From contig JBBEBG010000038.1 of the NCBI GenBank assembly GCA_040882465.1, positions 1 to 57,479 of the forward strand: a stretch of 57,479 nucleotides of DNA. Reading direction: 5' to 3'. Each line of letters starts with the position of its first letter. The first letter of the stretch is position 1. A model generated the notes under the pieces. That model was not told the origin of the DNA, made no database searches, and saw nothing but the letters and a program-made list of their open reading frames with translations. Origin of the DNA: Gemmatimonadota bacterium. GTDB lineage: Bacteria > Gemmatimonadota > Gemmatimonadetes > Longimicrobiales > Gaopeijiaceae. Shown here piece by piece: positions 19,840 through 25,370 of the stretch. The position numbers were made by a program, and so were the translations under genes.

Positions 19840-19868
19840 TTGCCTTGAACGGGATGGGTGCCTATCAT
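19840..19868 (+). promoter_or_regulatory. Sigma-70-type promoter for lemA
   Basis: TTGCCT (19840-19845) and TATCAT (19863-19868) with a 17-bp spacer precede the lemA ATG by about 60 bp. The hexamers each match the consensus at four or five of six positions. Confidence 0.5.
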
Positions 19869-19928: not shown

Positions 19929-20477
19929 ATGTGGATTCTCATCGTGCTCGGCCTCGCCGCCGTCGTCGTTCTGGCGGTGGTGGCGATGTACAACGGTCTG
20001 GTCCGGTTGCGGGAGCAGGTGGACGCTTCCTGGTCCAACATCGATGTCGAGCTCAAGCGTCGCCACGACCTCATCCCGAACCTCGTCGAGACGGTGAAGG
20101 GGTACGCGACGCACGAACAAACCACGCTCGAACGGGTGATCCAGGCCCGTAATGCGGCGCTTTCCGCGAAGGGACCGGCCGAAACCGCCGCGGCGGAAAA
20201 CGTCCTGACCGGAGCGCTCCGCCAGATCTTCGCCCTCTCCGAGGCGTACCCGGATCTCAAGGCAAACCAGAATTTCCTCCAGCTTCAGGGACAGCTGAGT
20301 CAGGTGGAGGATCAGATCCAGCGGGCGCGGAGCACCTACAACGGGGTCGTGCGGGATTACAACACGAAGATCCGGCAGATCCCGACGAACCTCATCGCGA
20401 CCGCCTTCGGCTTCGACGCCCGGGAGTTCTTCGAGATCGAAGAGGAGGCGCGGGCGGCCCCGCAGGTGAAGTTCTAG
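19929..20477 (+). CDS. lemA: LemA family protein
   Basis: 182 residues: an N-terminal membrane anchor (WILIVLGLAAVVVLAVVAMYN) and then a long helical-bundle region with the LemA signatures QVDASWSNIDVELKRRHDLIPNLVE, YPDLKANQNFLQLQ and YNTKIRQIPTNLIA, ending in FFEIEEEARAAPQVKF. The molecular role is not settled. The usual partner genes (TPM-domain or HtpX-type proteins) are absent, so it seems monocistronic. It sits oddly between lpdA and the pdhC end. Confidence 0.95.
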   Translation: MWILIVLGLAAVVVLAVVAMYNGLVRLREQVDASWSNIDVELKRRHDLIPNLVETVKGYATHEQTTLERVIQARNAALSAKGPAETAAAENVLTGALRQIFALSEAYPDLKANQNFLQLQGQLSQVEDQIQRARSTYNGVVRDYNTKIRQIPTNLIATAFGFDAREFFEIEEEARAAPQVKF

Positions 20478-20548: not shown

Positions 20549-21883
20549 TTAAAGGAGCGCGGTAAGCGGCTCCTCGAGGATCGCCCTGAGGGTGCGGAGG
20601 AAGGCGGACCCCTGGGCTCCGTCGATCACCCGGTGATCGCAGCTCATCGTGATCTTCATGCGGGGCTGGACCTTCACTTCTCCGTTCACCACCACGGCCC
20701 TCTCCTCGAGCGCGCCGACGGCGAGAATCCCCGCTTCGGGCGGGTTGATCACCGCGGTGAACTCTTCGATCCCGAACATTCCCAGGTTCGACACGGAGAA
20801 GGTGGCTCCCGTGTACTCGCCGGGCTTGAGTTTTTTCTCGCGCGCGCGGCCGGCGAGCTCACGGACCTCCGCGGCGATCTCCGCGATCCCCTTCAGGTGC
20901 GCGTCGCGGACGACCGGAGTGATGAGGCCGTCCTCGATCGCGACCGCGACCCCCAGGTGGACCCGGTTGAAGTGGCGGATGTGGTCGCCGCCCCAGTGCG
21001 CATTGCACTCGGGGTGCCGGCGAAGCGCGGCGGCCGTCGCTTTCAGAACGATGTCGTTGAAAGAGACCTTCACACCGGTGGACTCGAGGAGGGCGTTCAC
21101 CCGCTCTCGAGCCTCGACGACGCGACTCATGTCCACGTCCACGGTGAGGAAGAAGTGGGGGACCGGCCCGATGGACTCGACGAGGCGCTTCGCGATCGTC
21201 TTCCGCATCTGCGAAAGCGCGACGTCGCGGAAGTCTTCCGTCGAATCGGGGGGGGTCAGGCGGGGTGCGAAGGCCGGGGCCTTCGCGGCGGCCGGCGCGG
21301 CCGGTGCTTCCTGCGCCGCCCGCTCCACGTCCCGCTTTACGATCCGCCCGCCGGGTCCCGAGCCCTGGATGGCGCGGAGCTCGAGCCCCTCGTTCGCGGC
21401 GAGCCGGCGCGCGAGGGGTGAAGCCTTCACCCGACCCTCCGTGGCCGGAGCAGTCGTTCCTTCGACCTCCGCGGGACTCGGCGCCGCCGCGGCCGCTGTC
21501 TCGGCGGCGGGCGCCTCGGGCTCGGCCTCGCTTTCTTCTTTGACCTCTTCCTTCTTCTTCCCCTTCGTGGACTTCTTCTCGGCCTTCGGCGCGGGCGGGG
21601 GGGCCGCGTCCCCACCCCCGCCGACCAGGTCCGAGATGTCCTCGTCTTTCGTGCCGATCACGGCGATCACTTCCCCGACCGGGGCGGTGCTCCCCTCGCC
21701 GAGCACGATCTTCCGAAGGATCCCCTCCCCCCGCGCCACGAGCTCCATGGTGGCCTTATCCGTCTCGATCTCGGCGAGGACGTCCCCGTTCGAGACGGCG
21801 TCCCCTTCGGACTTGAGCCACTTCACGAGCTGCCCCTCCTCCATGGTGGGGGAGAGCGCCTCCATATGCACCTTCGTCGCCAT
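20549..21883 (-). CDS. pdhC: Pyruvate dehydrogenase E2, dihydrolipoamide acetyltransferase
   Basis: 444 residues. A single lipoyl domain at about 1-80 carries the lipoylated Lys in ETDKATME. A Lys/Glu/Ala/Pro-rich hinge follows (80-150), then the peripheral-subunit-binding domain (ASPLARRLAANEGLELRAIQGSGPGGRIVKRDV) and a catalytic core with the active-site motif DHRVIDGA. The MEALSPTMEEG opening is of the mitochondrial/alphaproteobacterial PDH type. It transfers acetyl groups to CoA. It is the last gene of lipA-pdhABC, 9 bp after pdhB. Confidence 0.95.
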   Translation of the reverse strand: MATKVHMEALSPTMEEGQLVKWLKSEGDAVSNGDVLAEIETDKATMELVARGEGILRKIVLGEGSTAPVGEVIAVIGTKDEDISDLVGGGGDAAPPPAPKAEKKSTKGKKKEEVKEESEAEPEAPAAETAAAAAPSPAEVEGTTAPATEGRVKASPLARRLAANEGLELRAIQGSGPGGRIVKRDVERAAQEAPAAPAAAKAPAFAPRLTPPDSTEDFRDVALSQMRKTIAKRLVESIGPVPHFFLTVDVDMSRVVEARERVNALLESTGVKVSFNDIVLKATAAALRRHPECNAHWGGDHIRHFNRVHLGVAVAIEDGLITPVVRDAHLKGIAEIAAEVRELAGRAREKKLKPGEYTGATFSVSNLGMFGIEEFTAVINPPEAGILAVGALEERAVVVNGEVKVQPRMKITMSCDHRVIDGAQGSAFLRTLRAILEEPLTALL

Positions 21884-21892
21884 GACTCGGCC

Positions 21893-22882
21893 CTAACTCC
21901 GGTAGAGGACCCGGTTGCACGCGTCAACGACGCGATCGGCGCTCGGCTTCGCGAGCTGCTCCAGATTTTTCGCGTACGGCATGGGAACGTCGGCCTGCGT
22001 GACCCGCACGACCGGCGCGTCGAGGTCGTCGAAGGCTTCGTCCTGAATAATCGAAACGACCTGCGACCCGACCCCGGCGAAGGGCCACCCCTCCTCCAGC
22101 ATTACGGCCCGGTTCGTCTTTCGGACCGAAGCGAGGATCGTGTCCACGTCGAGGGGACGGATCGAGCGCAGATCCACCACTTCCGCCTCGATCCCCTCCT
22201 TCTCCAGCTTCTGAGCGGCCATCAGGGCGATGTGCACGGTCGGACCGTGCGTGATGATCGAGACGTCTTCCCCCTCGCGCTTCAGGTCCGCCAGCCCGAG
22301 CGGGATCACGAAGTCGCCGTCCTCCGGGTCGGGGACCTCGCCCTTCACGTTGTAGAGAAGCTCCCCCTCCATGACCGCCACGGGGTCCTTGTCCCGGATC
22401 GCGGCCTTCAAGAGCCCTTTCGCGTCCGCCGGCGTCGCAGGCGTCACGACCTTCACCCCGGGCGCATGCACGTACCAGGAGGCACACGCCTGCGAATGCT
22501 GGGCGGAGAGCTGAAGCGCGGCGCCGGTGGGTCCGCGGAAAACGATTGGCACCGAGATCTGGCCGCCCGACATGTAATACATCTTCGCCGCCGAGTTGAT
22601 GACCTGGTCGAGGGCGAGGAGGGAGAAGTTGAAGGTCATGAACTCGATGACCGGACGGAGCCCGACCATCGCCGCTCCGACTCCGAGTCCCGCGAAGCCG
22701 AGCTCCGAGATCGGCGTGTCCACGACGCGCCGGTCGCCGAAACGATCGAGGAGTCCCTTGGACACCTTATAGGCTCCGTCGTACTCGGCGACCTCTTCGC
22801 CCATGAGGAAGACGGTCTCGTCCCGGTCCATTTCCTCGGCGAGCGCCTGGTTCAGAGCTTCACGGTAGGTGATGTTCGCCAT
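21893..22882 (-). CDS. pdhB: Pyruvate dehydrogenase E1 component, beta subunit
   Basis: 329 residues with the standard opening ITYREALNQALAEEMDRDETVFLMGEEVAEYDGAYKVSKGL, the TPP-contacting Glu in GEEV, and C-terminal RVTQADVPMPYAKNLEQLA. The DGRPVIEFMTFNF-like segment and AQHSQ are typical of acetyl-transferring E1-beta. It forms the heterotetramer with PdhA. It is the third gene of the cluster, 78 bp after pdhA. Confidence 0.96.
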   Translation of the reverse strand: MANITYREALNQALAEEMDRDETVFLMGEEVAEYDGAYKVSKGLLDRFGDRRVVDTPISELGFAGLGVGAAMVGLRPVIEFMTFNFSLLALDQVINSAAKMYYMSGGQISVPIVFRGPTGAALQLSAQHSQACASWYVHAPGVKVVTPATPADAKGLLKAAIRDKDPVAVMEGELLYNVKGEVPDPEDGDFVIPLGLADLKREGEDVSIITHGPTVHIALMAAQKLEKEGIEAEVVDLRSIRPLDVDTILASVRKTNRAVMLEEGWPFAGVGSQVVSIIQDEAFDDLDAPVVRVTQADVPMPYAKNLEQLAKPSADRVVDACNRVLYRS

Positions 22883-22960: not shown

Positions 22961-24031
22961 TCACCGATCGCGGCCGTCCAGGAAGAGGCGGCCGTGTTCG
23001 TTGATTTCCGCGTATGCGTGGGAGTAAAGTTCTTCGGGGGAGGGAGGGGGGGATTCGCCGGCGAATCGTACCGCCTCGTTTACTACCTCCCGTGCCTCCC
23101 CGTCCATCGCTTCGAGCTCCTTCTTGGTGAGAAGCTCGGCGTCGAGGAGCCTGTCACGCAGGCGGGTGATGGGATCGTCCTCTCGCTTGCGCCCTTCCAC
23201 TTCCTCCTTCGAGCGATATGTCCCGGAAACGGGGTCGGACATCGAGTGCCCTTTGAACCGGTAGGTGCGCGCGTCCACATATTGTGGACCCGCGCCGCTC
23301 CGGACGTCCGCCACCAGGCGCTCCATGAGCCGCCAGGACGCGAGGACATCCTGGCCGTCCACGGCGTGCGCCGGCACGCCGGTCCCGCCGGCCCGCTCCA
23401 CGACCGGGAGGGCGGAGACGCGCCTGAAGGCGGTCCCCATCCCGTATTCGTTGTTCTCGACGACGTAGATGACGGGGAGCTTCCAGACCGCCGCCATGTT
23501 CAGCGATTCCCAGAAAGCGCCCTGGTTCACCGCGGCGTCTCCGAGGAAGCAGACGCAGACTTCGTCGCCTCCCCGATACCGGATGGCCCAACCGATGCCC
23601 GTCGCCAGCGGGATCTGGCTCCCCACGATCCCGTGGCCACCCATGAAGCCGACGTCGGCGCCGAAGATGTGCATTGAGCCGCCCTTCCCGAGTGCTGAGC
23701 CTCCCGCCCGGCCGAAGAGCTCCGCCATCACGGGGCCCGCCTCGACCCCCTTCGCGAGCGCCTGCGTGTGATCGCGATACGCGGTGAGGACGTAGTCCTC
23801 TTGGCGAAGAGGGCCAATCATTCCGAGCGCGACCGCCTCCTGTCCGATGTGAAGGTGGCAGAATCCGCCGATCTTCCCGATCGCGTAAGCCTCCTCCGCG
23901 GCCTCCTCGAAGCGCCGGTAGAGGAGCATGTCCCTGAGGAAGGAGTGCAACTGCTCCTTGGAGAAGCCTTCTAGCTTCCCGGCGGGCCCCCGTTCCCCAG
24001 AGCTGGGCTTTCGCGTCTTGGTATCCGCCAT
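22961..24031 (-). CDS. pdhA: Pyruvate dehydrogenase E1 component, alpha subunit
   Basis: 356 residues. The thiamine-diphosphate motif begins with FLGDAAVNQGAF and ends at VVENNEYGMGT; the phosphorylation-loop-like stretch YRFKGHSMSDP is conserved. The HLHIGQEAVALGM and GGSMHIFGADVGFMGGHGIVG segments identify acetyl-transferring E1-alpha. It decarboxylates pyruvate and reductively acetylates the E2 lipoyl arm. It starts 5 bp after the lipA stop, so lipoate synthesis and its consumer enzyme are co-expressed. Confidence 0.97.
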   Translation of the reverse strand: MADTKTRKPSSGERGPAGKLEGFSKEQLHSFLRDMLLYRRFEEAAEEAYAIGKIGGFCHLHIGQEAVALGMIGPLRQEDYVLTAYRDHTQALAKGVEAGPVMAELFGRAGGSALGKGGSMHIFGADVGFMGGHGIVGSQIPLATGIGWAIRYRGGDEVCVCFLGDAAVNQGAFWESLNMAAVWKLPVIYVVENNEYGMGTAFRRVSALPVVERAGGTGVPAHAVDGQDVLASWRLMERLVADVRSGAGPQYVDARTYRFKGHSMSDPVSGTYRSKEEVEGRKREDDPITRLRDRLLDAELLTKKELEAMDGEAREVVNEAVRFAGESPPPSPEELYSHAYAEINEHGRLFLDGRDR

Positions 24032-24036
24032 ATCCT

Positions 24037-25140
24037 TCAGCCCCTTCCGTTCGTATTTGACCGCCCCATCGTGAGCTGGACGAGCGCCGGCCGTCCGAGC
24101 TCCGCCGGGGCGGGAAGGTCGGCCTCGAGAATCTCCCGGATCATCCCGGGCTCCCCGGCCTCGACTTCACGCGCCTGTTCCTTCGCATGGTACGACGACC
24201 GCACGAGAGGGCCCGCCTCTACGTGGCGAAACCCGAACTCCTCCTCGCCCACCCGCTTCCATTCCCCAAACTCTCCCGGAGTCACCCAGCGCGCCACCGG
24301 GATGTGCGCGGCGGAAGGACGCAGATACTGCCCGAGCGTCAGAATGTCCACCCCGGCCGAGCGCAGGTCCCGCATCGCGTCGCGGACCTCGTTCCCCTCT
24401 TCACCCATCCCCAGGATGATTCCGGTCTTGGCGAGAATTCCCGGATCCATCCGTTTTGCGGCACCCAGGTACGAAATCGAGCGCCAATAACGACCGCCCG
24501 GGCGAACCTCGGGATGCAGCCGCTCCACCGTCTCCAGATTGTGCCCGAGAATCTCGGGCCGCGCCTCCACGACCGTCCGGAGCGCTTCTTCGTCGCCCTT
24601 GAAATCCGGGATCAGGAGCTCCACCGAGCATCCCGGGACACGCCGCCGGATCTCACGGACCGTGTCCGCGTAGATCCCGGCGCCGCCGTCCGGGAGCTCG
24701 TCGCGGTTCACCGAGGTGATCACGACGTGCTCCAACTCCATCGCGGCCACCGTCTCGGCCACCCGCCGGGGCTCGTCCCGGTCCAGCTCCGTCGGCATCC
24801 CGTGCGCCACCGCGCAGTACTTACATGCGCGGGTGCAGACATCGCCGAGGATCATGAAGGTGGCGGTCCCCGCTTCCCAGCACTCCCCGATGTTCGGACA
24901 GCCGGCTTCTTCACAGACCGTATGGAGCGACTGGCTCCGCATCAACTCTTTCAGCCGGAGATAGCTCTTCCCCCCCGGGGAGCGGACCTTCAGCCATTCC
25001 GGCTTGCGATCCCGCATCGGAACGGTCGCGAGCCCTTCATGGGCCCGGATCCGCGACGTTCCCTTGGGCTTCACGACGCCCGTGTCCTTGTCGCCGGGGT
25101 GATACCCCCGAGCGACCGTCGCGGTCGCGGTGTCCGTCAT
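24037..25140 (-). CDS. lipA: Lipoyl synthase
   Basis: 367 residues from ATG 25140, which follows a strong purine-rich site (GGGAGGCGG) 7-8 bp upstream; an in-frame earlier start at 25287 would run into the structured leader. LipA inserts two sulfurs into octanoyl-protein using two [4Fe-4S] clusters. The radical-SAM motif is CTRACKYC, the auxiliary cluster cysteines are CEEAGCPNIGEC, and the family's RSSYHA stands near the C terminus. No lipB is seen here. Confidence 0.97.
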   Translation of the reverse strand: MTDTATATVARGYHPGDKDTGVVKPKGTSRIRAHEGLATVPMRDRKPEWLKVRSPGGKSYLRLKELMRSQSLHTVCEEAGCPNIGECWEAGTATFMILGDVCTRACKYCAVAHGMPTELDRDEPRRVAETVAAMELEHVVITSVNRDELPDGGAGIYADTVREIRRRVPGCSVELLIPDFKGDEEALRTVVEARPEILGHNLETVERLHPEVRPGGRYWRSISYLGAAKRMDPGILAKTGIILGMGEEGNEVRDAMRDLRSAGVDILTLGQYLRPSAAHIPVARWVTPGEFGEWKRVGEEEFGFRHVEAGPLVRSSYHAKEQAREVEAGEPGMIREILEADLPAPAELGRPALVQLTMGRSNTNGRG

Positions 25141-25233
25141 TTTATCCGCCTCCCGCCGCGCTTCCCCAAAGGGGCGCGGCGCGCGTTTGCAGGTGTCGCA
25201 ACGCACGCCCTTCACATGCGAGCCCGATGAAGC

Positions 25234-25265
25234 AAAAAAGCTCCCTCGCAGGCTTCGCGGGGAGC
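25234..25265 (-). terminator. Intrinsic terminator upstream of lipA
   Basis: On the minus strand GCTCCC (25265-25260) and GGGAGC (25245-25240) form a stem extended by CGC/GCG, followed at once by six T (25239-25234). It is the clearest Rho-independent terminator in the window. It lies about 94 bp before the lipA start, reading in the same direction, so it either ends a small RNA or acts as a conditional attenuator. Confidence 0.8.
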
Positions 25266-25334
25266 GCGGCTCGATGCGCTCCACCAACCCGGTCCAGGTT
25301 CGGTGGACGGCGCGCGGTATTGCGGCTTCCTCCG
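25234..25334 (-). ncRNA. Candidate structured leader RNA / small RNA before lipA
   Basis: A predicted transcript of about 100 nt starts just after the promoter at 25341-25370 and ends at the terminator. Its middle holds a strong hairpin (25281-25306: CCACC...GGTGG with AACC/GGTT, one bulge and a 7-nt loop). I do not recognise the family. It does not match the SAM, TPP, FMN, cobalamin or glycine riboswitch cores. The direction and distance suggest control of lipA-pdhABC by attenuation; an independent sRNA is the other reading. The rest of 25141-25475 holds no gene. Confidence 0.5.
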
Positions 25335-25340
25335 GTCTGG

Positions 25341-25370
25341 ATCATAGCATCCCCGGACATTTGATGGCAA
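25341..25370 (-). promoter_or_regulatory. Promoter of the lipA leader RNA
   Basis: On the minus strand TTGCCA (25370-25365) and TATGAT (25346-25341) are spaced by 18 bp. The start of transcription would be near 25334. This is a good sigma-70-type promoter and the only one evident upstream of lipA-pdhABC. Confidence 0.6.

Follow-up and report, generated by a model that had tools for sequence, protein, structure and literature searches.

The window, which is the whole stretch of 57,479 nucleotides analysed here, carries on its minus strand, in this order, a promoter, a leader of about 100 nt, an intrinsic terminator, a gap of 93 nt, and the genes lipA, pdhA, pdhB, and pdhC. lipA is the first gene of the operon, with its ATG at position 25140, and the identities of all four genes were backed by curated protein models.

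24037–25140, minus strand: lipA, lipoyl synthase (TIGR00510, 361.9 bits; cut-off, 310)
22961–24031, minus strand: pdhA, pyruvate dehydrogenase (PDH) E1 alpha (TIGR03182, over cut-off)
21893–22882, minus strand: pdhB, PDH E1 beta (NF008854, over cut-off)
20549–21883, minus strand: pdhC, PDH E2 dihydrolipoamide acetyltransferase (TIGR01349, over cut-off)

The neighborhood of lipA and pdhA was constant, and pdhA adjoined lipA in 44/44 long loci of the family that were tested. The gene upstream of the leader, as read from the sequence, appeared to vary between genomes: a sugar-nucleotide epimerase-like frame was seen in the genome of the window (G000), G023, and G050, and a gene of a different kind was seen in G047 and G017. 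Because the upstream gene appears to differ while pdhA follows lipA in every locus tested, the element goes with lipA.

The first-pass annotation had placed a promoter, a hairpin, and an intrinsic terminator 94–230 bp before the ATG of lipA, and all three features were found at this distance. The promoter is a strong one of the sigma70 type, TTGCCA-18-TATGAT with a TG before the −10 hexamer (25370–25341, minus strand). With 10/12 matches, it is the best promoter in the window, and 0.0 ± 0.1 such sites were expected in the 1.7-kb test region.

25365–25370, minus strand: −35 hexamer TTGCCA (TTGCC[A/C/T] in 15/15 promoter-plus-terminator relatives)
25341–25346, minus strand: −10 hexamer TATGAT with the upstream TG, an extended −10 (relatives show no variation in the 18-bp spacer)

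A second promoter-like site, TTGCCT-17-TATCAT, was observed on the plus strand of the window at 19840–19868, about 60 bp ahead of an ORF (19929–20477) whose putative product was LemA-like by eye.

The hairpin (25313–25276) folds as a helix designated P1, and the terminator occupies 25265–25234. The conserved parts of the leader are three mutually exclusive helices, namely P1, P2, and the terminator.

25232–25317, minus strand: conserved leader element in full (covariance model R1: 74.4 bits, E 3.7e-20; the model includes this copy)
25276–25313, minus strand: P1 hairpin, the putative anti-antiterminator (predicted fold and hand-aligned pairs in six relatives)
25276–25282, minus strand: 5′ strand of the P2 antiterminator, GGAGCGC (pairs in 9/9 sequences; GG extension at 25284–25285 across a bulged U)
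25261–25267, minus strand: 3′ strand of the P2 antiterminator, GCGCUCC (CC extension at 25259–25260; overlaps the terminator 5′ arm)
25257–25265, minus strand: terminator 5′ arm, GCUCCCCGC
25240–25249, minus strand: terminator 3′ arm, GCGAGGGAGC (relatives retain one A that is bulged or mismatched)
25234–25239, minus strand: U6 tract of the intrinsic terminator

P1 of the window was predicted to be a long, imperfect hairpin, GCGC-cg-UCCACC-g-AACCUG-gac-CGGGUU-GGUGGA-GCGC, and in the other members it takes the form UGCU-ca-CCG-g-CY-n-CCGG...CCGG-n-RG-g-YGG-AGCG. Its 3′ strand contains GGUGGAGCG and thereby holds the 5′ strand of P2. Compensatory changes in P1 (C-G/U-A and C-G/G-C) were found in a hand alignment of six sequences, and the covariation of P1 is not independent of that alignment. 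The apical part and the loops of P1 are free to vary, both in sequence and in length; the conserved bases of the leader sit in helices, and the sole conserved unpaired nucleotides are those of a CA bulge. P2 reads GGAGCGY/RCGCUCC across the relatives, with 100% of cells paired over nine sequences, and varies as C-G/U-G/U-A at one pair and as C-G/U-G and G-C/G-U at two others.

The terminator, GCUCCCCGC/GCG-A-GGGAGC, has a GC-rich stem of 9 bp that contains a single bulged A and is followed by U6, and its free energy is about −17 kcal/mol. Across the relatives, GCUCCCCGC faces GCG-A-GGGRGC, with 92.6% of cells paired and G-C/A-U/C-G at one pair. A simple terminator scan did not report it, and the bulged A is the presumed reason. 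This A, which precedes GGG in the 3′ arm and is either bulged or opposite C, was invariant in 9/9 leaders; a plain pair in its place would give a stronger terminator. The 3′ strand of P2 and the 5′ arm of the terminator have 5–7 nt in common, which is most of the terminator arm.

The comparison of lipA upstream regions covered the majority of the family's genomes, together with other families from its order and class. The window comes from an uncultured member of the Gemmatimonadota, since the named records with the nearest LipA proteins belong to this phylum; the LipA encoded in one of these records is identical to that of family genome G027. A leader of about 85 nt with a terminator was present upstream of lipA in nine genomes from five genera of the family, and many genera of the family were without such a leader. 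The covariance model R1, built from seven leaders (G000, G021, G023, G050, G134, G136, and G137), found the held-out leaders of G047 and G017 at E-values of 4.7e-9 and 1.1e-8, respectively. Strong R1 copies occurred once per genome and always before lipA, and no comparable match was found elsewhere in the genome of the window, in 121 genomes of the family, or in 395 genomes of the phylum. Weaker matches of up to 28 bits were obtained among about 500 genomes, a chance level that is to be expected for so many genomes. With the filters off, R1 also matched the divergent lipA leaders of G055, G009, G057, and G015 at their terminators (E 0.0003–0.008). Leader alignments across genera gave z values of 3.6–13.8 against shuffles, and the spacer before lipA and the 150 bp upstream of the promoter were mostly not alignable across genera. 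In BLAST searches with the leader, convincing E-values were obtained among the relatives for G023 and G050 only, and nothing was found in plasmids. Conservation upstream of lipA in relatives had been named in advance as the check on this structure, and the alternative terminator/antiterminator pairings were found to be kept there.

The basal fork of the LipA tree has weak support. In this tree, every genome with a leader or a terminator lay within one part of 17 rows, a distribution consistent with a single gain of the leader. The same part includes a row labelled "none" (L117), the LipA of which is identical to that of the terminator-carrying G027. G032 and G031 are apparent losses of the leader. 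G138 (L200), the sister of G017 and G047, retained the promoter and the U-tract, and P1 and P2 were not recognisable in it; the leader can thus change fast within a genus.

The nearest relatives repeat the whole arrangement, in which TTGCC[A/C/T]-18-TATNRT with the upstream TG is followed by the leader, the terminator, the spacer, and lipA. Since a promoter, a transcript of about 100 nt, and a strong terminator are also typical of an sRNA gene, the element might be a free-standing small RNA that has its own promoter and terminator and acts in trans, with lipA expressed by read-through or from another promoter; a terminated leader fragment would arise under either reading. However, the element always lies directly before lipA even though the preceding gene appears to differ, and no promoter clearly above shuffles was detected in the spacer between the terminator and lipA. 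Moreover, in G032, which is without the terminator, a promoter of like type lies immediately before lipA and would drive it directly, and the conserved bases are located in the competing helices, with no conserved single-stranded seed. These observations weaken the small-RNA alternative that had been raised at the outset, and we consider it unlikely.

Promoters of a related type were also seen before lipA in other genera of the family. In L043, L045, L048, L053, L068, and L075, the promoter was TTGTNN-18-TATSAT within GGCTATSATT, its hexamers being again spaced by exactly 18 bp, and the terminator was mostly absent. In L047, L049, L058, L212, L215, and L226, a recurrent block of the form TTGT...GCTTTTTTTC or TTGTGAGGCC...CCTTTTCTTT was located about 75–90 nt ahead of codon 12 of lipA, and this block looks more promoter-like than terminator-like.

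Hairpins are cheap in GC-rich DNA. The free energy of the 113-nt leader was only slightly better than that of shuffled sequences (z −1.8), and in most leaders neither the terminator 5′ arm nor the P2 5′ strand paired better with the sequence upstream of it than with shuffled sequence. Because folding energy alone reached only this z value, the significance of the leader rests on conservation. The covariation score of the P1-P2 structure was matched by 3/500 shuffles, and slid control structures paired 26–65% of cells compared with 97% for the P1-P2 structure. In this set of nine sequences, of which about six are independent and which contain few double changes, the covariation support for the leader helices was modest, that is, suggestive rather than strong.

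The predicted ensembles were then compared between members. For the transcript without the terminator 3′ arm, P2 dominated in G000, G134, G136, and G137 (0.95–0.99), was partial in G023 (0.41), and was minor in G021, G050, G047, and G017 (0–0.13), so that P2 did not dominate the predictions for the unfinished transcript in the latter five members. In the full-length fold, P2 ranged from about 0 to 0.9 overall, being about 0 in G000 and 0.6–0.9 in G134, G136, and G137, which suggests that the P2 and terminator states are close in energy. The isolated 5′ part was predicted to fold into P1-like hairpins in most members. The predicted energetics would thus allow a switch.

These comparisons of sequence suggest that the element is probably the 5′ leader of the lipA-pdhABC mRNA and acts in cis as a new transcription attenuator. 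A promoter, a leader, and an intrinsic terminator precede the first gene, no promoter was found past the terminator, and the conserved antiterminator P2, paired in 9/9 sequences, excludes the terminator; the test based on energy only was not significant. Besides the promoter and the terminator, the conservation of the leader, its linkage to lipA, and the potential of its nine members to pair as P2 or as the terminator can be read directly from the sequences. From these, we infer an intracellular competition among the three folds, an off state made up of P1 and the terminator, and some factor that regulates the choice.

In this attenuator, RNA polymerase would start at TTGCCA-18-TATGAT and make about 100 nt of leader. 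P1 would form first and sequester the GGUGGAGCG strand. With P1 formed, the downstream CGCUCCCCGC strand would be free to pair with GCGAGGGAGC as the terminator, and transcription would stop before lipA. If P1 were opened or unformed, GGAGCGC would pair with GCGCUCC (P2), the terminator would be blocked, and the operon would be transcribed. A protein factor, pausing or speed of the polymerase, or a fixed set point of partial termination is more likely to be the trigger than a small-molecule aptamer, because only the competing helices are conserved, with no conserved loop or leader peptide.

A special case of the attenuator would be a riboswitch of a new class that senses lipoate or another PDH-linked metabolite, with P1 as the aptamer, its lower part serving as a minimal binding site, and the P2/terminator pair as the expression platform to which it is coupled. 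Lipoate, octanoate, pyruvate, acetyl-CoA, and compounds related to Fe-S or S-adenosylmethionine are possible but not favoured ligands. The logic of the operon and the presence of a terminator/antiterminator platform agree with such a riboswitch, and the leader had no covariance-model match at the gathering score among 4227 Rfam models, as a new class would show. In addition, a 2022 review counted lipoic acid among the cofactors that lacked a known riboswitch (PMC9971707). The free variation of the P1 apical part and loops and the restriction of this small element (~85 nt) to one family argue against it, and the comparison of relatives revealed no conserved ligand-binding core of invariant unpaired nucleotides, the CA bulge apart. 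We therefore give a small-molecule riboswitch only a slim chance. The first-pass annotation had rightly recognised no known riboswitch core and had proposed a new attenuator or ligand-responsive leader; the attenuator half of this proposal agrees with a conserved, lipA-tied leader that keeps its alternative pairings, whereas the ligand-responsive half found no aptamer-like conserved loops to support it.

The leader may instead be a constitutive partial terminator that fixes the level of read-through and is not regulated. Conservation limited to the competing helices agrees with this explanation, as do the fast divergence and loss in relatives (G138, G031, and G032), which fit a weakly constrained set point. 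Nevertheless, a simple terminator would not need the fully conserved P2 pairing, which points to a switch, and we regard constitutive termination as a serious but rather doubtful alternative to the attenuator.

The antiterminator sequence of T-box leaders is AGGGUGGNACCGCG, and the antiterminator 5′ strand of three relatives, AGGGUGGAGCG, resembles it, with a seven-letter match, AGGGUGG, in G023, G134, and G137. The lipA leader thus shares with the T-box (RF00230) an antiterminator 5′ strand with GGUGG and a CUCCC strand common to the antiterminator and the terminator. It differs in that G000, G021, G050, and G136 do not keep AGGG, the tRNA-binding bulge (UGGNACC) has no ACC, and only about 13–32 nt precede P1, which is too short for Stem I with its specifier loop; there was also no match to the Rfam T-box model. 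As these defining features fail, including the AGGGUGGNACCGCG antiterminator, T-box identity was rejected and has practically no chance of being correct.

Other candidates were also rejected. SRP RNA (RF00169) was a first impression from GACCGGAGGAAGCC, and no match to the model was found here; a candidate SRP RNA lies on contig C30. This only SRP RNA candidate of the genome (L031, G000:C30:60672-60768, minus strand) scored 39.3 bits, just below the Rfam cut-off of 40. A peptide-coding attenuator was rejected since no conserved short leader ORF, start, or frame was read by eye: the core leaders were without ATG except those of G047 and G017, and a GTG near the start was present in some only. 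A TTG ORF that begins at 25287 and continues in frame across the leader and into lipA was not conserved, and the open frame around lipA in G021 is only 375 aa.

The lipA leader is a compact leader RNA outside Rfam that is specific to the lipoate/pyruvate-dehydrogenase operon in Gemmatimonadota. If the switch is real, it would provide RNA-level control of the entry of pyruvate into central metabolism; if the leader is only a set-point terminator, it would represent ordinary tuning of an operon. No lipA/PDH leader, lipoate riboswitch, or Gemmatimonadota leader RNA was found in the open literature searched, in which few subscription papers were covered. Because no riboswitch for lipoic acid was known to the 2022 review (PMC9971707), the leader is a concrete candidate, and one that is short and simple to test.

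The leader can also be compared with established control systems of bacterial operons. PdhR-type DNA-binding repressors control pdh genes at the promoter; the target genes are of a like kind, whereas the candidate control described here lies in the RNA leader and not in the promoter. Transcription attenuators that use a terminator, an antiterminator, and an anti-antiterminator are represented by trp-, pyr-, and riboswitch-type expression platforms. The lipA leader resembles them in having three exclusive helices between the promoter and the first gene and an antiterminator that shares the 5′ arm of the intrinsic terminator. It differs from them in having no leader peptide, recognised aptamer, or protein-binding site, in its sequence, which is unrelated to Rfam families, and in its position before lipA-pdhABC. 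The leader is thus of the known terminator/antiterminator type, and its novelty lies in the sequence family, the target, and the host group.
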